Shown here in pieces: positions 4,153 through 55,649 of a stretch of 64,000 nucleotides of DNA. The notes beneath the pieces were generated by a model. The model was not told the origin of the DNA, did not search any database, and worked only from the letters and a program-made list of their open reading frames with translations. The translations under genes and the position numbers were made by a program. The DNA is from Oscillospiraceae bacterium (GTDB lineage Bacteria; Bacillota; Clostridia; Oscillospirales; Ruminococcaceae). The stretch lies in NCBI GenBank assembly GCA_017848055.1, contig JAGALZ010000039.1, positions 1-64,000 on the forward strand. The letters run 5' to 3'. Within the stretch, counting starts at the first letter, position 1. The number at the start of each line of letters is the position of its first letter.

Positions 4153-5916
4153 TTAAACCGCCTCCTTTCCGAAGCCCTCGTTCTGGAGGGTAAACACCTC
4201 GTTATAGTAACCGCCGAGTGCAACGAGCTCATCATGTGTTCCCATTTCGGAAATCTTACCGTCCTTGAGGATGATGATTTTATCTGCATCCTTGGTTGAA
4301 GAAATTCTCTGTGCGATGATAATCTTTGTGCAGTCAAAGTCGAGATTTCTGAGGCTTTCCTGGATATGTGTTTCTGTTTCCATATCGACTGCTGAGGTTG
4401 TATCGTCGAGGATGAGGATAGCAGGACGTATTGCAAGTGCTCTTGCGAGAGAAATTCTCTGCTTCTGACCACCCGATAATCCTACACCTCGTTCACCGAT
4501 AAGCGTTTCATAGTTATCGGGCATTTTGGAAATAAATCCGTGGGCAGCAGCAAGTTCTGCATACTTCTTAACATCATTCTCAGGCATATCTGAGTCACCG
4601 TATGCAATGTTTCCGTCGATTGTATCAGAAAACAGAAGTACATCCTGGGTAGCCATACCGATATTACGTCTTAGCTGCTTGAGCTTACGTTTTCTGACAT
4701 TTACGCCGTCGACAAGAACCTCGCCTTGTGAAACATCATAAAATCTAGGAATGAGATTTATGAGAGTTGTCTTACCCGAGCCTGTTTCGCCCATAATGGC
4801 AACAGTTTCACCCGGCTTTACCTTAAATGAAATATTGCTGAGAACTTCTGTATTTCCATATTTAAAGGAAACATCCTTGAATTCTATTTCCCCCTTAAGT
4901 CTATCTTCTGTATCCACAGCATCGCTTCTGTCAACGATAGTAGGCTGTGAGTAGTAGATTTCGATAATCTTCATGGATGATGCCATAAATCTCTGAAGGT
5001 CGTTTACATAGATACCAAGGTTTCTCATAGGGTTTGCAATTGCCCAGATAAGACCTGAAATAGCAATGTAATCACCCATTGACAGAGAGCCGTTTATGAG
5101 GAAAATACCACCTGCTAAAAGCATAATAACAGAAAGAATATTTGCAAAGGTATCCATAAACGGAGAGAACTTCAGCCAGAGGAGTGCTGCTCTTTTATTT
5201 GCGACAGAGAACTCTTTGCTGGCTTTATCAAACTTTTCCTTTTCGTATTCTTCTCTTGCGAAAGCCTTTACAACTCTGTTACCCGAGATATTTTCTTGCG
5301 CATCCGTATTAAGTCTTGAAAGCTTTTCACGAAGCTCAACATATACGGGGCCTGCAACTCTTTTGAACGCAACAGTGAAAATAAATATAAACGGAGTTAC
5401 AGACAAAAGCAGGAGCGCAAGCTTCCAGTTGATAATAAAGAAGTATACTATGGACGCTGTGAACAATGAAAACGACTCAACGATTCCCTTGATAACCCAG
5501 GAAACAGTATGTCTTACAGCATCGAGGTCACCGGTAAGACGGGTCATAAGGTCGCCTGTTCTGTTTTTGTCATAGAAGTTCATATCCTGGTTCTGGACTC
5601 TTTCAAAGAGCTTGTTTCTGATTTTATAAATCATACCCTGAGAAGAGATTTCGTAGGTCATATTACAGCTATACTGAAGAATTGTTCTCAGAAGTGTAAA
5701 GCCTATCATACCAACCAAAAGCCATATAAGACCTTCCTTGTTATTGTTTAGGTTTTCGATTGCTGATTTTGATGTGAGATATGTGTCTACAATCTCTTTG
5801 CTGAAATACGGCGTTGTCAGATACAGAACATTACACACAAGTGACAAAAAGAGTGCCGTTATGTAAAACTTTCTGTAACCCTTCAGGCTATACCACAGCC
5901 ATTTAACCTGGAACAT
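4153..5916 (-). CDS. ABC exporter half-transporter, subunit with degenerate ATPase site
   Basis: This is the first gene of the exporter operon, 587 residues, with a six-helix membrane domain followed by an NBD. Walker A GETGSGKTT (near 375) and signature LSGGQKQR are present. However, Walker B is LILDDTTS, with Asp instead of the catalytic Glu, and the H-loop reads AQR, with Gln instead of His. These are the substitutions of the degenerate half of heterodimeric exporters such as TM287, so only one composite site should hydrolyse ATP efficiently. I chose the ATG at 5916 because GGGAGG lies 6 bases upstream; the frame also has an ATG at 5943 without a good ribosome binding site. Confidence 0.9.
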   Translation of the reverse strand: MFQVKWLWYSLKGYRKFYITALFLSLVCNVLYLTTPYFSKEIVDTYLTSKSAIENLNNNKEGLIWLLVGMIGFTLLRTILQYSCNMTYEISSQGMIYKIRNKLFERVQNQDMNFYDKNRTGDLMTRLTGDLDAVRHTVSWVIKGIVESFSLFTASIVYFFIINWKLALLLLSVTPFIFIFTVAFKRVAGPVYVELREKLSRLNTDAQENISGNRVVKAFAREEYEKEKFDKASKEFSVANKRAALLWLKFSPFMDTFANILSVIMLLAGGIFLINGSLSMGDYIAISGLIWAIANPMRNLGIYVNDLQRFMASSMKIIEIYYSQPTIVDRSDAVDTEDRLKGEIEFKDVSFKYGNTEVLSNISFKVKPGETVAIMGETGSGKTTLINLIPRFYDVSQGEVLVDGVNVRKRKLKQLRRNIGMATQDVLLFSDTIDGNIAYGDSDMPENDVKKYAELAAAHGFISKMPDNYETLIGERGVGLSGGQKQRISLARALAIRPAILILDDTTSAVDMETETHIQESLRNLDFDCTKIIIAQRISSTKDADKIIILKDGKISEMGTHDELVALGGYYNEVFTLQNEGFGKEAV

Positions 5917-47922: not shown

Positions 47923-48840
47923 ATGATATATACTGTTACTTTTAATCCGTCGATTGACTACGCTATCATTACTGACGGCTTTACGCTCGGCGGAATAAAC
48001 CGTACTATGAGTGAAACTATCCTTGCAGGAGGTAAGGGCATAAACGTTTCAACTGTGCTTCACAACTTAGGCTGTGAAAGCGTGGCTCTTGGCTTTACTG
48101 CAGGCTTTACGGGCGGAGAGATTGAGAGACTTCTTGACAGAGACGGTGTAAAATCCGACTTCATTTCTCTCAAAAACGGAATGTCCAGAATCAACGTCAA
48201 GCTCAAGGACAAGGAAGAAACCGAGATAAACGGCTCGGGGCCTGAAATAGATTCTCAGAGTCTTAATGCACTTATGACAAAGCTCTCGCTACTGCGTGAG
48301 GGTGACTATCTTGTGCTGGCAGGAAGCATTCCGTCAACACTTCCCGATACTGTATACCTTGACATTATGCAGATGCTTTCGGGAAAGGGTGTCAATATCA
48401 TTGTTGACGCATCTAAAAACCTGCTTCTGAACGTTCTTCCTCAGAAACCGTTTCTTATAAAGCCGAATAACATTGAGCTATCGGAGATGTTCGGTGTGAC
48501 TACACTTTATGACAAGGACGAGATTATCTCATACGCTAAAAAGCTTCAGGATATGGGTGCGAGAAACGTTCTTGTTTCAATGGCAGGCGACGGTGCGGTG
48601 TTTGTTTCGGAAAATGGGCTCGAGCTTAAGTCCGAAGCACCGGCAGGAGTTGTAATAAATTCGGTAGGTGCAGGAGATTCCATGGTAGCAGGCTTTATTG
48701 CGGGATACATAGAAAACGGCGACTTTGAAAAGGCTTTCAGGCTCGGTATTGCTTCGGGAAGTGCAAGCACCTTCTCGAGATTTTTAGCTACCAGCGATGA
48801 AATTTATGCGATACTTACACGACTTGAGGAGAACATATGA
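47923..48840 (+). CDS. fruK: PfkB-family 1-phosphofructokinase / tagatose-6-phosphate kinase
   Basis: A 305-residue ribokinase-fold enzyme. The N-terminus TVTFNPSIDYAI and AGGKGINVSTVLHNLG are typical of FruK/LacC, and NSVGAGDSMVAGFIAGY contains the catalytic Asp. It should phosphorylate fructose-1-phosphate or a related sugar phosphate to a bisphosphate. No fruA PTS gene or regulator is adjacent, so the true substrate could be tagatose-6-phosphate. Its stop overlaps the next start by 4 bases. Confidence 0.9.
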   Translation: MIYTVTFNPSIDYAIITDGFTLGGINRTMSETILAGGKGINVSTVLHNLGCESVALGFTAGFTGGEIERLLDRDGVKSDFISLKNGMSRINVKLKDKEETEINGSGPEIDSQSLNALMTKLSLLREGDYLVLAGSIPSTLPDTVYLDIMQMLSGKGVNIIVDASKNLLLNVLPQKPFLIKPNNIELSEMFGVTTLYDKDEIISYAKKLQDMGARNVLVSMAGDGAVFVSENGLELKSEAPAGVVINSVGAGDSMVAGFIAGYIENGDFEKAFRLGIASGSASTFSRFLATSDEIYAILTRLEENI

Positions 48841-50201
48841 AAAGGCTGACAGACAGGCTCAATGAGCTTTCAGAGGGTAAGACCTACCCCTTTCACATGC
48901 CGGGGCACAAGAGGAACACCGAACTTATGGGAACGCTTCTCCCCTATGAAATTGACATAACCGAAATTACAGGCTTTGATAACCTGCATGGGGCTGACGG
49001 GATAATCGACGACATTCAGTCAAGGCTTTGCAGTTTTTACAAATCGAAAAAGAGCTTTCTTCTCGTTAACGGAAGCACCTGCGGAATTATGTCGGCAATC
49101 ACCTGCCTTTGCTGTATCGGCGAAGGAATTGTTGCGGCACGAAACTGCCACAAGTCCGTTTACAAGGCAATCGAGCTTTACAAGCTCTCACCTGCTTGGG
49201 TATCCCCTGAGTTTGATGCGTCCACGGGAATTATGGGGCGAATATCTCCTCAGTCTGTAGAGAACGCACTCAAAAGCAGTAGTGCAGGACTGGTTGTAAT
49301 AACTTCGCCTACTTATGAAGGTGTAATAAGCAATATACCCGAAATTGCCAAGGTCTGTCATAAATACGGTGCATTACTCATGGTTGACATGGCGCACGGA
49401 GCACATCTGCCGTTAATGGGCGGTTTTGAGGAAGCTTACGGCGCTGACATTGCGGTTGTTAGTCTGCACAAGACGCTCCCCTGCCTTACTCAGACTGCTT
49501 GTCTTAATGTATACTCGGATAAAATCGACGTTGCAAGGCTTGCAGAATCGCTTTCGGCATTTGAAACATCGAGCCCTTCATATCCGCTTATGGCATCGGT
49601 TGACAGATGTATGACGCTGATTGAAAAACAAGGCTGTCAGCTTGCAGATAAGTACAAATCCTTGCTCGGCGATTTTTACGACAGAACTTTCAGGCTCAAA
49701 GCTCTCAGGATTTACCGAACTGACGACTACGGCAAGCTTATTATTGCCTGCGACAAGGCATCAATAAGCGGCTCTGAGCTTTTTGCGAGGCTGAGAGATA
49801 GTTACGCAATTGAGTGCGAAATGGCAAGTGCGAGATATGTTGTTACAATGAGCAGTATGTGTGACACCTGCGAAGGCTTCGAGAGGCTTATTGACGCACT
49901 TTTTGAGATTGACAAGGAACTTACACCACAGCAGAAGCTCCCCCTTACGCTTTGCGGTGTACCGAAGGTATGTATGACCTCATACGAGGCGGTAAGACGT
50001 GAGAAAGAGTGCGTGGAGCTTACAAAGGCACAGGGCAGGATTTCAGCGGAGTATGTATTTGCGTATCCGCCGGGGATTCCGCTTCTGGCACCGGGCGAAG
50101 AAATATCAGACGGCATTCTCTCGGGCATAGCCGAGCTTGAAGCAGCGGGGGTTGAAATCCACACAGATTACGGCAGTTTAATGATATCAGTTTTGAAATA
50201 A
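48837..50201 (+). CDS. Orn/Lys/Arg decarboxylase-family PLP enzyme
   Basis: A 454-residue fold-type I PLP protein. The N-terminus FHMPGHKRN is the family hallmark, and DITEITGFDNLHGADGII follows. The PLP lysine lies in SLHKTLPCLTQT. DMAHGAHL includes the Asp that contacts the pyridine N. Likely decarboxylates arginine, lysine or ornithine to a polyamine precursor (SpeA-like of Bacillus type), though the short form makes the substrate uncertain. ATGA overlap with the PfkB gene suggests coupling, though the functional link is unclear. Confidence 0.9.
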   Translation: MKRLTDRLNELSEGKTYPFHMPGHKRNTELMGTLLPYEIDITEITGFDNLHGADGIIDDIQSRLCSFYKSKKSFLLVNGSTCGIMSAITCLCCIGEGIVAARNCHKSVYKAIELYKLSPAWVSPEFDASTGIMGRISPQSVENALKSSSAGLVVITSPTYEGVISNIPEIAKVCHKYGALLMVDMAHGAHLPLMGGFEEAYGADIAVVSLHKTLPCLTQTACLNVYSDKIDVARLAESLSAFETSSPSYPLMASVDRCMTLIEKQGCQLADKYKSLLGDFYDRTFRLKALRIYRTDDYGKLIIACDKASISGSELFARLRDSYAIECEMASARYVVTMSSMCDTCEGFERLIDALFEIDKELTPQQKLPLTLCGVPKVCMTSYEAVRREKECVELTKAQGRISAEYVFAYPPGIPLLAPGEEISDGILSGIAELEAAGVEIHTDYGSLMISVLK

Positions 50202-50258
50202 AATTTGCATTCCCCGAAATAATGTTCTATATTGTATACAGGACAAGGGGAAATTGAC

Positions 50259-50600
50259 ATGACTTTAGGAGTAAAGATTATTAAGTTCAGAGATAAGCTT
50301 AATGTAAAACCAGAGCAACTATCACAATACCTTAAAATCACCCAAAAAGAGCTTACAGATATTGAGAACGGAGAGTCTGACACAAGTCTTGAAGTGGCTA
50401 CAAGGCTGTCCTATCTGCTTGGAATTAATGTCTGGGAGCTTCTCCGAGACAGCGAGTACGAATGCCGTATTTCCTGCAATTTGAGTTGGGAGCACATAGG
50501 TGCCGATACTTTACGCACAATCGCAGACATTCACAGAATAGCAGCAAACGCAGGTGCTATGGAAATCATGCTGGCAGATAAGGAAGGCACCACAAATTAA
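50259..50600 (+). CDS. XRE-family transcriptional regulator
   Basis: A 113-residue protein with an N-terminal helix-turn-helix (LGVKIIKFRDKLNVKPEQLSQYL..., helices to about residue 60) and a C-terminal helical region. AAGGGG lies 8 bases before the ATG at 50259. It stands directly upstream of the two CAP-domain lipoprotein genes and could regulate them; that is inference from position. A 96-base gap with an RNA structure separates them. Confidence 0.85.
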   Translation: MTLGVKIIKFRDKLNVKPEQLSQYLKITQKELTDIENGESDTSLEVATRLSYLLGINVWELLRDSEYECRISCNLSWEHIGADTLRTIADIHRIAANAGAMEIMLADKEGTTN

Positions 50601-50628
50601 CATTTTTTACAATTATTATATTGTTACA

Positions 50629-50687
50629 CAATTTGTTCGTCCTTCCGCATCAGCGGAAGGTCGAACAGACAAATTGCTGATGGAAGG
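50629..50687 (+). promoter_or_regulatory. Leader RNA structure with alternative fold that hides the ribosome binding site
   Basis: One fold pairs CCTTCCGC (50641-50648) with GCGGAAGG (50653-50660), extended by CAATTTGTTCG (50629-50639) and the complementary CGAACA...AATTG downstream. A second fold pairs CCTTCC-ATCAGC (50641-50646 and 50649-50654, two bases bulged) with GCTGATGGAAGG (50676-50687), the ribosome binding site of the next gene. The two folds exclude each other. This suggests translational control; ligand or trigger unknown. Confidence 0.5.
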
Positions 50688-50696
50688 ATGATTACT

Positions 50697-51758
50697 TTGA
50701 AAATAAGAACGAAAATTTTTCTGGTATTTGCATTGTCGCTTACGCTATGTGCTTGCGGAAATAATGATAGTAGTATGTCAGTTACTACTCCGAGCTCAAC
50801 ATCTGTTACGACTACGACTACAACTACAGCGACATCAAGTACTTCTGCTTCTTCTACAACTACATCATCAACTACCTCACCAAGCGGAACTATAACAACC
50901 ACAAGTATTCTAACTACAACTACTTCAAAAACTGATTCTATAACCGAATCAGAATCTTCATCCGAGAGTACTACAACAGTTACAACTATGGCATCAACTA
51001 CTACAACCGCCAAGAGAGTTACAACTACTTCTATCAAGGTTTCTGCTTATGATGCAATAATGTATGCTAACAAAGATGCAAATATCCGCAGCGGTAACGG
51101 AACACAGTATGATATAGTTCACACTGTAAAAAAGAATACTAGTATAAGAATCATCGGTATATGTGAAAACGGCTGGTATAAGGTGACGGTCAATGATATT
51201 GAAGGATATATGTCCTCTACCGTTCTTGGTGATGAAAAGGTAACTACTACATCAACCACTACCACTGCAAAGAAACCTGAGACAACTCCTTCAACGACTA
51301 CAACGAAGAAGCCGGTGCAAACAGGTCAAGTAGATCCGCAAAAGGACCTTGAAGAAGCATATAAGATGGTCGAACTTGTAAATGATTTAAGGTCTGAAAA
51401 TGGACTTCCTGAGCTTGAGATAGATGAGAGAATTATGGAGGCTGCAAGGATAAGAGCTGAAGAACTATCAGAAAAATTCAGCCATACAAGGCCAAACGGC
51501 GAAAGCGGAGGTTCAGCTATATGGGATGCATTTGGTGATGACTGGTATTTGATGTGGCATACAGGTGAAAACATTGCAATGAACAATGGTGGCAGAGCAG
51601 AGTATACTTTTACAAAGCTCTGCGAAAGCGAAGGTCACAAGAATACTATGTTACAAGGCGAGTTTTCTTTGGTAGGAATAGGGTTCTATTCAGTTTATGA
51701 TGATGTATACGGTACGTTATATTACTGCTGCCAATTATTTGGTGGTTATCACGAATGA
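50697..51758 (+). CDS. CAP-domain lipoprotein with SH3 domain and Thr-rich linkers (first paralogue)
   Basis: A 353-residue lipoprotein. The signal ends LTLCAC (lipobox Cys), followed by a Thr/Ser-rich linker of ~85 residues, an SH3_3 domain (ANIRSGNGTQYDIVHTV, about residues 115-175), a second Thr/Lys/Pro linker and a C-terminal CAP (SCP/PR1) domain with LVNDLRSENGLPEL, FSHTRPNG and WHTGENIA. I prefer a TTG start at 50697, 9 bases after GGAAGG; the ATG at 50688 directly abuts that site. The paralogue's start agrees. The linkers look like cell-wall-spanning, possibly glycosylated stalks. CAP function in bacteria is poorly known. Confidence 0.85.
   Translation: MKIRTKIFLVFALSLTLCACGNNDSSMSVTTPSSTSVTTTTTTTATSSTSASSTTTSSTTSPSGTITTTSILTTTTSKTDSITESESSSESTTTVTTMASTTTTAKRVTTTSIKVSAYDAIMYANKDANIRSGNGTQYDIVHTVKKNTSIRIIGICENGWYKVTVNDIEGYMSSTVLGDEKVTTTSTTTTAKKPETTPSTTTTKKPVQTGQVDPQKDLEEAYKMVELVNDLRSENGLPELEIDERIMEAARIRAEELSEKFSHTRPNGESGGSAIWDAFGDDWYLMWHTGENIAMNNGGRAEYTFTKLCESEGHKNTMLQGEFSLVGIGFYSVYDDVYGTLYYCCQLFGGYHE
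50766..50809 (+). repeat. 44-base near-identical segment, copy 1
   Basis: Matches 51985-52028 at 43 of 44 positions, both coding for SSMSVTTPSSTSVT just after the lipid anchor. It shows recent duplication or gene conversion between the two lipoprotein genes. Confidence 0.9.
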
Positions 51759-51765
51759 GTTAAAA

Positions 51766-51795
51766 AATAAGAGTCTTATAGGCTCTTATTTTTTT
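51766..51795 (+). terminator. Intrinsic terminator after first CAP lipoprotein
   Basis: AATAAGAG (51766-51773) and CTCTTATT (51783-51790) with a 9-base loop, then TTTTTG. Confidence 0.8.
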
Positions 51796-51924: not shown

Positions 51925-53055
51925 ATGAGAAAATTTATAGTTAGTATATTTGTGGCTTTAGCTTTATCTTCTTGCAGTAATACAGATAGTAGTATGTCGG
52001 TTACTACTCCGAGCTCAACATCTGTTACAACTACAACCACATCTGCTTCCGCTACGTCTCAGAGCGAGGGAACGACCACAACGACCTCTGCTTTAGAATC
52101 ACAGGTGCCTACAGAAACGCAGATGACTAATGAGGCAAGTCATACAGAAGGAGAAAGTTCTTCTAATACAGAAAGCGTTTCTTCTTTAACCTCATCGGAA
52201 ATTTCCGTAAGTACCACTACTGAAAAATCGGAAACGGAAGGAACAAAACCTGCTGTTACGACAACTACAATTGTTACGACTCCGAAAGTAACGACTACCA
52301 CGAAAAATTCTACTACAACAAAGCCAAAGGTGACGACAACTACAAAGAAGGCAACAACCACCACAAAGAAGCAGACTACTACCACTAAGGCTACGACAAC
52401 CAAGCCTGCGGAAACAACTCAGTCAAAGGTTACTACGACGACTACGGCAAGCGATCCGAAGATAGGTAACTATCGTTATATATATAAAGATTCATATTTG
52501 TACTCAAAGCCTGATACATCCAGCGAACCAGTATGTATGCTGGCTGCTCATACTAAAGTATTTGTAGAAGCTAAAGAAAACGGATTGTATAAAATAGTTA
52601 CAAATGAAAAGAAATTGGTAGGCTATACAAAAGGATACTTACTTGATACTAGTTTATACGGTGGCGAAGTAAACACGATTGAAGACATATCTCTTTATGA
52701 CGACGAGTGCTTCAAGCTTATGAATGAACACAGAAAGTCATTAGGACTCCCTGAACTGAAGTATTCATCAGAGCTTCAAAAAGCTGCGGATATTCGTGCA
52801 AAGGAGCTCACAGAATCTTTCAGCCACTTCAGGCCAAACGGTGAGTATTTTGACAGTATATTTGAAGAACTTGGCATAGAGTATGATTCATTCAGAGGAG
52901 AGATAAACTGCTCCGGAGCTTCTCTTCCCAATGAGGCGATTGAAGCTTGGATAGACAGTCCGGCTCACTATCAGCATATGATATCCACAAGCTACAATGC
53001 TGCCGCTTGCGGTCATAACGGTTATCAGTGGATTATTGTATTTATTAAAGAGTAA
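51925..53055 (+). CDS. CAP-domain lipoprotein with SH3-like domain and Thr-rich linkers (second paralogue)
   Basis: A 376-residue paralogue with the same order: signal ending LALSSC, Thr/Ser/Glu linker with a Thr/Lys repeat zone, an SH3-like domain (about residues 185-250, weaker than in the first copy), and a CAP domain with NEHRKSLGLPEL, FSHFRPNGE and DSPAHYQHM. GAGAGGTG precedes the ATG. Only the region around the anchor is near-identical to the first copy; elsewhere they have diverged. It has its own promoter, so the two can be regulated separately. Confidence 0.88.
   Translation: MRKFIVSIFVALALSSCSNTDSSMSVTTPSSTSVTTTTTSASATSQSEGTTTTTSALESQVPTETQMTNEASHTEGESSSNTESVSSLTSSEISVSTTTEKSETEGTKPAVTTTTIVTTPKVTTTTKNSTTTKPKVTTTTKKATTTTKKQTTTTKATTTKPAETTQSKVTTTTTASDPKIGNYRYIYKDSYLYSKPDTSSEPVCMLAAHTKVFVEAKENGLYKIVTNEKKLVGYTKGYLLDTSLYGGEVNTIEDISLYDDECFKLMNEHRKSLGLPELKYSSELQKAADIRAKELTESFSHFRPNGEYFDSIFEELGIEYDSFRGEINCSGASLPNEAIEAWIDSPAHYQHMISTSYNAAACGHNGYQWIIVFIKE
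51985..52028 (+). repeat. 44-base near-identical segment, copy 2
   Basis: Partner of 50766-50809, with one difference (A to G). Confidence 0.9.
52255..52446 (+). repeat. Thr/Lys-rich low-complexity coding repeat
   Basis: Runs of ACN codons punctuated by AAR codons give units such as TTTTK and TTTKP. It forms the extended stalk of the second CAP lipoprotein; length variation by slippage is likely. Confidence 0.8.
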
Positions 53056-53172: not shown

Positions 53173-53325
53173 ATGAAAAGAATTGTTACTATCAAGACAA
53201 GAGATATGAAGGAAAGCGTTAAGAACGGCGGCTGCGGCGAATGCCAGACATCCTGCCAGTCTGCTTGCAAGACTTCCTGCGGCGTTGCTAACCAGCAGTG
53301 CGAGAAGTGCGGCAAGAAGGACTAA
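53173..53325 (+). CDS. SCIFF ranthipeptide precursor (seven cysteines)
   Basis: A 50-residue peptide with a leader of about 20 residues and a core that starts CGECQTSCQSACKTSC, the signature of the 'six cysteines in forty-five residues' family found in nearly all Clostridia. Here the cysteines are C21, C24, C28, C32, C36, C43 and C46, so there is a seventh in the tail CEKCGKKD. The SCIFF maturase installs thioether links from Cys sulfur to non-alpha carbons (ranthipeptide). TAAGGAG lies 10 bases before ATG. It stands directly before its maturase and under a very strong promoter. Biological role unknown; some evidence links ranthipeptides to quorum sensing. Confidence 0.95.
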   Translation: MKRIVTIKTRDMKESVKNGGCGECQTSCQSACKTSCGVANQQCEKCGKKD

Positions 53326-53353
53326 GCTTTAACTTTATTTAAAAAGATTTGCT

Positions 53354-53416: not shown

Positions 53417-54790
53417 ATGATACATCAGTACAAGCTGGGCGGCTACAACATTGTACTTGACGCTTTCAGCTCGAGTGTTCACTGTGTTGATGACCTCGCT
53501 TACGACGCTATTGCACTTTATGAGGGTACACCGAAGCAGGAGCTTATCTCCACTCTTTCGGAAAGATACCCCGACGTTACAGAGCAGGACATCCTTGACA
53601 CAATTTCCGACATCGAGGAACTCAAAGCCCAGGGCAAGCTGTTTTCCGAGGACGAATACGCTGACAAGGCTTTTGATTTCAAAAACCGCCACACCCAGGT
53701 AAAGGCGCTTTGTCTGCACGTTGCACACACCTGCAACCTAAACTGCGAATACTGCTTTGCAAGTCAGGGCAAGTATCACGGCGAAAAAGCTATTATGAGC
53801 CTTGAAACGGGCAAGCGTGCACTCGATTTTCTTGTTGAAAATTCAAAGGGCAGGACAAACCTCGAGGTCGACTTCTTCGGTGGTGAGCCGCTTATGAACT
53901 TTGACGTTGTAAAGGAGCTTGTTGCTTACGGCAGGGAGCTTGAGAAAAAGCACGGCAAGAACTTCCGCTTTACTCTTACAACAAACGGTATGCTCATTGA
54001 CGACGATGTTATCGAATTTTCAAACAAGGAGATGCACAACGTTGTTCTTTCGCTTGACGGAAGAAAGGACGTTCACGACAGACTCAGAAAGACCTACACA
54101 GGTCAGGGAAGCTACGACACCATTGTTCCGAAATTCCAGAAGTTTGTCAAGGAGCGTGGCGACAAAGGCTACTATGTGAGAGGCACCTTTACCCACAACA
54201 ACATAGATTTCACAAGCGACATTCTCCACATGGCTGACCTTGGATTTACCGAGCTTTCGATGGAGCCGGTGGTATGTGCTCCTGATGACCCGTATGCACT
54301 GACCGAGGAGGACTTCCCTGTTCTCTGCGAGCAGTATGAGAAGCTTGCATTCGAGATGCTCAGACGTGAAAAGGAGGGCAAGCCTATCACCTTCTATCAC
54401 TACATGATTGACTTAGAGGGCGGCCCTTGCATTTACAAGAGAATTTCGGGCTGCGGCTCGGGAACAGAGTATCTTGCGGTAACTCCTTGGGGCGAGCTTT
54501 ATCCTTGTCATCAGTTTGTAGGTGACGAAAAGTACAGCATGGGCGATATCTGGCGTGGTGTTACAAACACTGAGCTTCAGAATGAGTTCAAGATGTGCAA
54601 CGCTTATGCAAGAGAAGACTGCAAGGACTGCTGGGCAAAGCTTTACTGCAGCGGCGGATGTGCGGCAAACGCTTATCACGCAACAGGCTCAATCACCGGT
54701 ATTTACGAATACGGCTGCAGACTTTTCAAGAAGCGTATTGAATGTGCAATTATGATGAAGGTTGCGCAGGCACTTGAAGACGCAGAATAA
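53417..54790 (+). CDS. SCIFF radical SAM maturase (SPASM)
   Basis: A 457-residue enzyme of the CteB type. Residues 1-90 look like a RiPP-recognition-like region that binds the leader. The radical SAM cluster motif CNLNCEYC (C106, C110, C113) follows, then FFGGEPLMNF. The C-terminal SPASM domain has cysteines in CGSGTEYL, YPCHQF, CNAYAREDCKDCWAKLYCSGGC and YEYGCRLF for two auxiliary [4Fe-4S] clusters. It forms thioether bonds in the SCIFF peptide encoded 92 bases upstream. CGGAG precedes ATG. Confidence 0.95.
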   Translation: MIHQYKLGGYNIVLDAFSSSVHCVDDLAYDAIALYEGTPKQELISTLSERYPDVTEQDILDTISDIEELKAQGKLFSEDEYADKAFDFKNRHTQVKALCLHVAHTCNLNCEYCFASQGKYHGEKAIMSLETGKRALDFLVENSKGRTNLEVDFFGGEPLMNFDVVKELVAYGRELEKKHGKNFRFTLTTNGMLIDDDVIEFSNKEMHNVVLSLDGRKDVHDRLRKTYTGQGSYDTIVPKFQKFVKERGDKGYYVRGTFTHNNIDFTSDILHMADLGFTELSMEPVVCAPDDPYALTEEDFPVLCEQYEKLAFEMLRREKEGKPITFYHYMIDLEGGPCIYKRISGCGSGTEYLAVTPWGELYPCHQFVGDEKYSMGDIWRGVTNTELQNEFKMCNAYAREDCKDCWAKLYCSGGCAANAYHATGSITGIYEYGCRLFKKRIECAIMMKVAQALEDAE

Positions 54791-54841: not shown

Positions 54842-55471
54842 TTAGCATGATGTTGTTTTTCTTTCGTTTGCGGAAACCTTCCTGAAAAGCATAAGCACAA
54901 CGGGAAGTATCACGAAAAGGAGCGGAATATCGGCGAAAAGCTCGATTACGTTTTTCCCGATTCTCGTGATAACAGCCTCTGTATACGCCTGTTCGGGTAT
55001 GAAGCCGTAATGAAGGTTGAGCTTTGTGTTGATAAGAAGGTTTATAATAATGATGTCAAGCAATCTTGCGATAATGGCTCGTACATAAAGAGTGATATCC
55101 GTTTTCTTGCCTGTCACGTTATTGACAAACACAAGGCTGTGGCTGTCGTTTCTGCGATAGAGGCAGATGCCGTATATAAGTCCCTGCAGTCCTGCGACAA
55201 GTACATAAGCAGGGAGAAAGCCTCCTGACGGATGAACCATAAATCCGACAATATCCCCTGCAAAGCCTGCAAACAGTGCAACACTTGGCCCGAACAGCAT
55301 TCCTATTGATGCGATTGCTAAAAATGCAAAATTGATTTTGAAAAATTCAAGGTCAATGGAATACATTTCGATAAGCATTGAGATTGCGATAAGCACGCCC
55401 GTGAAGGCGATACACTTTACCGATTTGAATTCCATTGCTGATTTTTTAAACATACCCAAAAAGCTCTTCAT
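54842..55471 (-). CDS. folT: ECF transporter S component for folate (FolT)
   Basis: A 209-residue membrane protein with about six helices. The N-terminal AFTGVLIAISMLIEMYSIDL, GMLFGPSVALFAGFAGDIVGFMVHPSGGF and GLIYGICLY segments fit the FolT family of substrate-binding ECF subunits. It would bind folate and work with shared EcfAAT modules encoded elsewhere. The start at 55471 has CGGAGG 8 bases upstream; the frame extends to 55516 into the leader but without a ribosome binding site. The upstream riboswitch strongly supports the folate call. Confidence 0.9.
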   Translation of the reverse strand: MKSFLGMFKKSAMEFKSVKCIAFTGVLIAISMLIEMYSIDLEFFKINFAFLAIASIGMLFGPSVALFAGFAGDIVGFMVHPSGGFLPAYVLVAGLQGLIYGICLYRRNDSHSLVFVNNVTGKKTDITLYVRAIIARLLDIIIINLLINTKLNLHYGFIPEQAYTEAVITRIGKNVIELFADIPLLFVILPVVLMLFRKVSANERKTTSC

Positions 55472-55479
55472 ATTTATTA

Positions 55480-55524
55480 CCTCCGTTATGCGAGCAATTT
55501 TTTTGCCTCTATGCATAATCGGAG
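55480..55524 (-). promoter_or_regulatory. Ribosome-binding-site sequestering helix of folT
   Basis: CTCCG-A-TTATGC (minus strand, 55513-55524) can pair with GCATAACGGAG (55481-55491), 11 bp with one bulged base. The second strand includes the folT ribosome binding site. The stem gives a translational OFF state downstream of the riboswitch. Confidence 0.65.
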
Positions 55525-55541: not shown

Positions 55542-55649
55542 ACACATTCAGCGGGATGCGAAAACCAAACCGCAAGGCACTACCCTTTTCGTTCAGGCAA
55601 CAACTCCCCGTCTGCCTGACACTTCACGCTTGGTTTTCTACTCTGTGTG
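55542..55649 (-). promoter_or_regulatory. Tetrahydrofolate (THF) riboswitch
   Basis: The minus-strand leader of folT holds the conserved segments of the THF aptamer in order: AGAGTAGA, GCGTGAAGTGT, GGGGAGTT, ACGAA, TTGCGGT and CGCATCCCGCT. The outer CACA/TGTG pair can extend the first stem. It lies about 70 bases before the folT start, and the gene encodes a folate transporter, as expected for this riboswitch class. Downstream pairing suggests control at translation. A -10-like TATAAT (55650-55655) adjoins its 5' end; otherwise it is reached from pfkA. Confidence 0.9.

Follow-up and report, generated by a model that had tools for sequence, protein, structure and literature searches.

A short RNA leader, lying in the gap between an XRE-type regulator gene and the CAP-domain lipoprotein gene CAP1, is predicted to adopt two mutually exclusive folds, one of which closes the Shine-Dalgarno sequence of CAP1. 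We tentatively read it as a structured 5' UTR of the CAP1 mRNA that is specific to this lineage and affects translation initiation and/or mRNA decay. It is best read as belonging to a known general kind, without an Rfam family or a known trigger, and not as a new class.

The window, by which we mean the whole 64,000-nt stretch of DNA that was analysed, belongs to the 1.94-Mb genome of a gut bacterium, in 56 contigs. An earlier reading made from the sequence alone (the sequence-only reading) had described mutually exclusive folds, one of them over the ribosome binding site of a CAP-domain lipoprotein gene downstream of an XRE gene, and RNA folding together with Pfam searches confirmed this description. 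As in bistable leaders that sequester the Shine-Dalgarno sequence, two exclusive helices use a common strand, and one of them lies over the Shine-Dalgarno sequence. The features of the locus are collected in Table 1.

Table 1. Genes and sequence elements around the CAP1 leader (window positions)
Feature	Position	Strand	Description
Orn/Lys/Arg-decarboxylase family gene	48837-50201		First gene of the locus, followed by XRE
TATATTGT in the presumed -10 region of the XRE promoter	50228..50235	+	Sequence match
XRE-type HTH regulator gene	50259..50600	+	113 aa from ATG 50259; Pfam HTH_3, E=1.7e-7
Promoter-like site TTAACA-16-TATTGT for CAP1	50597..50624	+	Consensus scan; TATATTGT at 50617-50624
Outer complementary octamers CAATTTGT / ACAAATTG	50629-50636 / 50669-50676	+	Inverted repeat I5
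Fold A, 5' hairpin	50632..50669	+	Core CCTTCCGC-ATCA-GCGGAAGG, extended by UUUGUUCG/CGAACAGA
Fold B, left strand TCGTCCTTCC-gc-ATCAGC	50637..50654	+	Overlaps fold A from the left arm through the loop into the right arm
Fold B, right strand GCTGATGGAAGGATGA	50676..50691	+	Holds most of the Shine-Dalgarno sequence GGAAGGATGAT
CAP1, CAP-domain + SH3_3 lipoprotein	50697..51758	+	Pfam CAP, E=5.4e-13; SH3_3, E=1.2e-11
Terminator-like hairpin 3' of CAP1	51762..51794	+	Terminator scan
CAP2, tandem paralogue of CAP1	51925..53055	+	Short leader, no hairpin
SCIFF-like Cys-rich peptide gene	53174-53326	+	After CAP2
Radical SAM/SPASM enzyme gene	53417-54790	+	After the SCIFF-like gene

Likely start codon and putative promoter of CAP1

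The open reading frame list puts the start of CAP1 at ATG 50688, which is in frame but directly abuts the GGAAGG of the Shine-Dalgarno sequence. TTG 50697, located ~8-9 nt 3' of the Shine-Dalgarno sequence GGAAGGATGAT, is the likely translation start because of this spacing, because the protein then opens with MKIRTKIFLVFALSLTLCACG... and carries a canonical lipoprotein signal (MKIRTKIFLVFALSLTLCAC), and because the resulting length agrees with that of CAP2 (MRKFIVSIFVALALSSC).

Based on the promoter-like site upstream of CAP1, the 5' end of its RNA is expected at ~50629-50631, at the foot of the hairpin, so that the hairpin would be retained and a stem-loop would stand near the 5' end of the mRNA. 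A 5' end downstream of 50660, which the sequence-only reading had named as speaking against it, is not predicted. The CAP1 and CAP2 promoters have the 11-mer TTATATTGTTA in common. TATATTGT occurs four times in the 64 kb (both strands), and three of these copies are at the XRE, CAP1 and CAP2 promoters. Since 2.1 copies are expected by chance, the count is slightly above expectation, and the interest of this motif is in its position rather than its count.

CAP1 and CAP2 are 83% identical in DNA over the end of the signal peptide and the linker (50733-50825 and 51957-52050, respectively), unlike their leaders and CAP domains, which have diverged; this pattern suggests tandem duplication or gene conversion. 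Further downstream the window holds a THF riboswitch (Rfam RF01831, 88 bits; 55547-55647, minus strand), upstream of a membrane-protein gene (54842-55516, minus strand) that probably encodes a folate transporter.

Two mutually exclusive folds of the leader

In fold A, CCTTCCGC (50641-50648) pairs with GCGGAAGG (50653-50660), and the arms reach 15 nt with 14 of the 15 positions paired (50634-50648 with 50653-50667). Fold B pairs CCTTCC and ATCAGC with GCTGAT and GGAAGG (50676-50687), leaving a 2-nt GC bulge; written out, TCGTCCTTCC plus ATCAGC stands against GCTGAT plus GGAAGGATGA. The helix continues for four pairs (TCGT/ATGA), and positions 50682-50691 are wholly covered. Because the left arm is common to both, the folds exclude each other, each using 50637-50654. 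The coordinates and inner pairings were thus as the sequence-only reading gave them, both pairings extending further than it had noted. The outer stem that it also proposed (CAATT...AATTG) exists as complementarity between CAATTTGT and ACAAATTG, but is used in neither minimum-energy fold. A third pairing, between the 3' end of XRE and the left arm (repeat I1), makes up at most 1.5% of ensembles. An intrinsic terminator was considered and rejected: the terminator scan does not list the leader hairpin, and AGACAAATT follows its stem.

The minimum free energy (MFE) of 50629-50699 is -29.9, compared with -14.3 +/- 2.8 in dinucleotide shuffles, none of which (0/3000) was as low. Among the 55 gene leaders in the window, this leader is first by stability, and no other has a predicted Shine-Dalgarno openness below 0.1. 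When the hairpin and GGAAGG were held fixed and the flanks shuffled, the energy of fold B was again never reached (0/3000), in a test that was, like the other significance tests, post hoc, because the site had been picked for its pairing pattern. Equally good folding occurs at about a dozen further sites in the 64 kb, and 8-bp perfect hairpins are common there. Shuffling the 3' part only did not discriminate, with the plain MFE as low in 444 of 3000 shuffles, because most of the energy comes from hairpin A alone. Helix length is also weak evidence: the longest uninterrupted helix has 11 pairs, and 170 of 3000 shuffles gave at least 10.

Predicted fold preference and refolding

In the isolated leader the energies of folds A and B are -27.9 and -29.9 kcal/mol, respectively. 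Folding of the growing chain lets A appear at 50660, with -26.3 kcal/mol by 50670; not until ~50695 has been transcribed is B the minimum. For transcripts running from 50629 to 50699-50720, B accounts for 98% of the ensemble; for those extended to 50740-50829, A accounts for 75-99.7% (99.7% for 50629-50740), because the Shine-Dalgarno region then pairs with the coding sequence. With coding sequence present, this region is partly paired even in fold A. A longer 5' end (50560-50699) gives 94% A. The predicted fold preference is dependent, in these models, on the assumed transcript ends.

By findpath, refolding from A to B must cross 15.4-17.7 kcal/mol in transcripts ending at 50692-50720. By ordinary rate estimates, a barrier of ~15-18 kcal/mol is slow to cross relative to mRNA lifetimes. 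Because the computed barrier is high, unaided refolding from A to B should be slow, and A should persist in new mRNA unless helped. An RNA thermometer, as the sequence-only reading had suggested, is not supported: modelled mean Shine-Dalgarno openness is 0.01 at 10 C, 0.02 at 37 C and 0.08 at 60 C, so the model predicts a Shine-Dalgarno region that stays paired up to 60 C.

The leader and its locus in related genomes

DNA searches found the CAP1 leader in a single copy in its own genome and, across 60 relatives and ~390 genomes of the order, returned only the leader itself; the only other match is 31 bases long, AT-rich and looks like chance. Rfam covariance models gave no gathering-level match to the leader, and only chance-level matches at a relaxed threshold (E at least 0.19). 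The exact hairpin core has three matches in unrelated genomes or MAGs, which we took as chance, and none in viral collections. A search for the layout, meaning a hairpin with an anti-Shine-Dalgarno arm and a later Shine-Dalgarno-like hexamer, found only the CAP1 leader in its own genome, and scattered matches elsewhere that look like chance or local repeats. We found no other stretches of the genome with long complementarity to the leader.

None of the nine other genomes of the genus has a match to the XRE protein, whose matches beyond the genus are weak or remote, mostly restricted to the HTH. In the congeners the locus was located by a synteny anchor, from the decarboxylase gene to the SCIFF-like and radical SAM genes. 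Two of these genomes (G007 and G005) have the decarboxylase gene directly followed by the SCIFF-like and radical SAM enzyme genes, with no XRE, CAP1 or CAP2; the conserved SCIFF-like and radical SAM genes mark the downstream edge of the XRE-CAP block. In G007 (L041, G007:C13 ~4255-4310, minus strand), ~48 bases match the 3' part of XRE at 77% identity. Because this scrap remains between the decarboxylase and SCIFF-like genes, at least XRE was probably once present in G007 and then deleted. The sequence-only reading had counted a lack of conservation in relatives as evidence against it, and formally no relative carries the leader; since these two congeners are without the whole locus, however, this is an absence of data rather than broken pairing.

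The CAP2 leader has an MFE of -11.6 and no GC hairpin, and leads from the promoter 11-mer straight to the Shine-Dalgarno sequence. Compared with the CAP1 leader, those of 12 further CAP-type lipoprotein genes are unstructured, with MFEs between -5 and -11. CAP proteins were tried as a comparative anchor and rejected, as the many members in the genus have unrelated leaders, most of them without structure. Three CAP-type lipoprotein genes from three genomes of the genus (L009, L016 and L018) do share a similar leader, TTGTATAATAcaATTGTagCA...CACAAAT...TTGAAAAGrrTTGTTAAATTTATG; it has no obvious Shine-Dalgarno sequence, and is a better comparative candidate than the CAP1 leader. At another locus, L017 (G007:C1, ~900-1340), a CAP-domain gene is adjoined by ~36-nt repeats (GCTTAAGACCCGTGTAAAAYTACAGGGTTCTAAAAC) that are CRISPR-array-like, with tracr-like terminators.

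Discussion

Control of the CAP1 gene by the two folds is plausible, though unproven. One form that it could take is a regulated switch, in which a small RNA, an RNA-binding protein, the position of a ribosome, or the choice between XRE read-through and CAP1's own promoter picks A (on) or B (off). The close fit of fold B to the Shine-Dalgarno region, the small difference between the folds in the isolated leader (within ~2-3 kcal/mol) and the shift toward A with longer 5' ends are all consistent with such a switch. We nevertheless consider it unlikely: there is no aptamer-sized domain, the loop being 4 nt, and no Rfam match; the rest of the genome has neither another copy nor a long stretch complementary to the leader; and there is no conservation in the genomes searched and no known trigger.

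It is also possible that hairpin A alone matters, as a stem-loop that protects the 5' end of the mRNA, with fold B a by-product of the resemblance of CCTTCC to an anti-Shine-Dalgarno sequence. The leaders of ompA and aprE carry 5' stem-loops that are known stabilisers (PMC7509114) and, as is predicted for the CAP1 leader, place a stable stem-loop close to the 5' end, ahead of the Shine-Dalgarno sequence. Hairpin A lies near the predicted 5' end, is kinetically first and is hard to undo. The left arm of the CAP1 stem, in contrast to ompA and aprE, is also complementary to the Shine-Dalgarno region, and fold B runs on through ATCAGC/GCTGAT and TCGT/ATGA to an energy not reached in the flank shuffles, which speaks against a by-product. 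We regard this reading as a fair rival, unlikely to a slightly greater degree than the switch.

The inverted repeat could instead act at the DNA level, as an operator bound by the product of the XRE gene immediately upstream; its 15-nt arms adjoin the XRE gene and lie downstream of the promoter-like site. An operator of this kind would be expected at the regulator's own promoter, but the core repeat occurs once in the genome and is absent there, and the -10 regions have a different motif in common, TATATTGT. On these grounds we regard the hairpin as an improbable XRE operator. More doubtful still is a neutral quasi-palindrome arising by local duplication or template switching in a locus that is gained and lost: GGAAGG does occur three times nearby (50583, 50655 and 50682), with ACAAATT after the first two, the locus is missing in congeners with an XRE scrap left in G007, and the CAP2 leader has no hairpin, but the element occupies precisely the interval from promoter to start codon and gives the only closed Shine-Dalgarno region among the 55 leaders, which should carry a cost if unselected.

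The leader resembles several known systems. In the maturation-gene leader of bacteriophage MS2, translation is timed co-transcriptionally, and the final, cloverleaf-like fold forms in due time (PMC6733600). There, as may happen in CAP1, a transient early fold keeps the Shine-Dalgarno sequence open before the closing fold; the early hairpin of CAP1, however, is very stable, and a high computed barrier separates it from the closed fold. The type I toxin mRNAs hok and aapA3 use metastable hairpins, an interaction between the mRNA ends and an antisense RNA (PMC6733600). They have in common with CAP1 that alternative pairings decide access to the Shine-Dalgarno sequence, but CAP1 encodes a CAP-domain lipoprotein and has no known antisense RNA. 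The cspA and lambda cIII leaders, too, have two folds that exclude each other, temperature deciding between them (PMC4166951), whereas the predicted closed state of CAP1 lasts to 60 C and CAP1 is not a cold- or heat-shock gene.

Returning to the structured 5' UTR that we favour, which would act in cis on the initiation of translation and probably on the stability of the mRNA, we propose that transcription starts near 50630 and that hairpin A would form on leaving the polymerase, ~20-25 nt before the Shine-Dalgarno sequence is complete. By holding the anti-Shine-Dalgarno strand, the hairpin would leave the new mRNA open to ribosomes, and fold B would be the closed state for molecules that lose or refold A. 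Since the high barrier makes unaided refolding slow compared with the life of the mRNA, the likeliest everyday effect is constitutive tuning, in which the 5' hairpin would serve as anti-sequestrator and stabiliser, with a closed minority and no ligand sensor. On/off control is more likely to be transcriptional, exerted by the XRE protein at the related -10 regions of its own gene, CAP1 and CAP2.

The finding concerns one locus in one genome, so its general value is limited. A ligand-free kinetic timer or promoter-choice switch, in which mRNA from CAP1's own promoter could close and XRE read-through mRNA would be open, is very improbable in our estimation; if true, it would couple lipoprotein output to XRE transcription. 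If the favoured reading is true, a compact leader would, through its folding alone, set how a variable surface lipoprotein is translated, at a locus that relatives are without, and only one member of a tandem pair would be under this post-transcriptional control.
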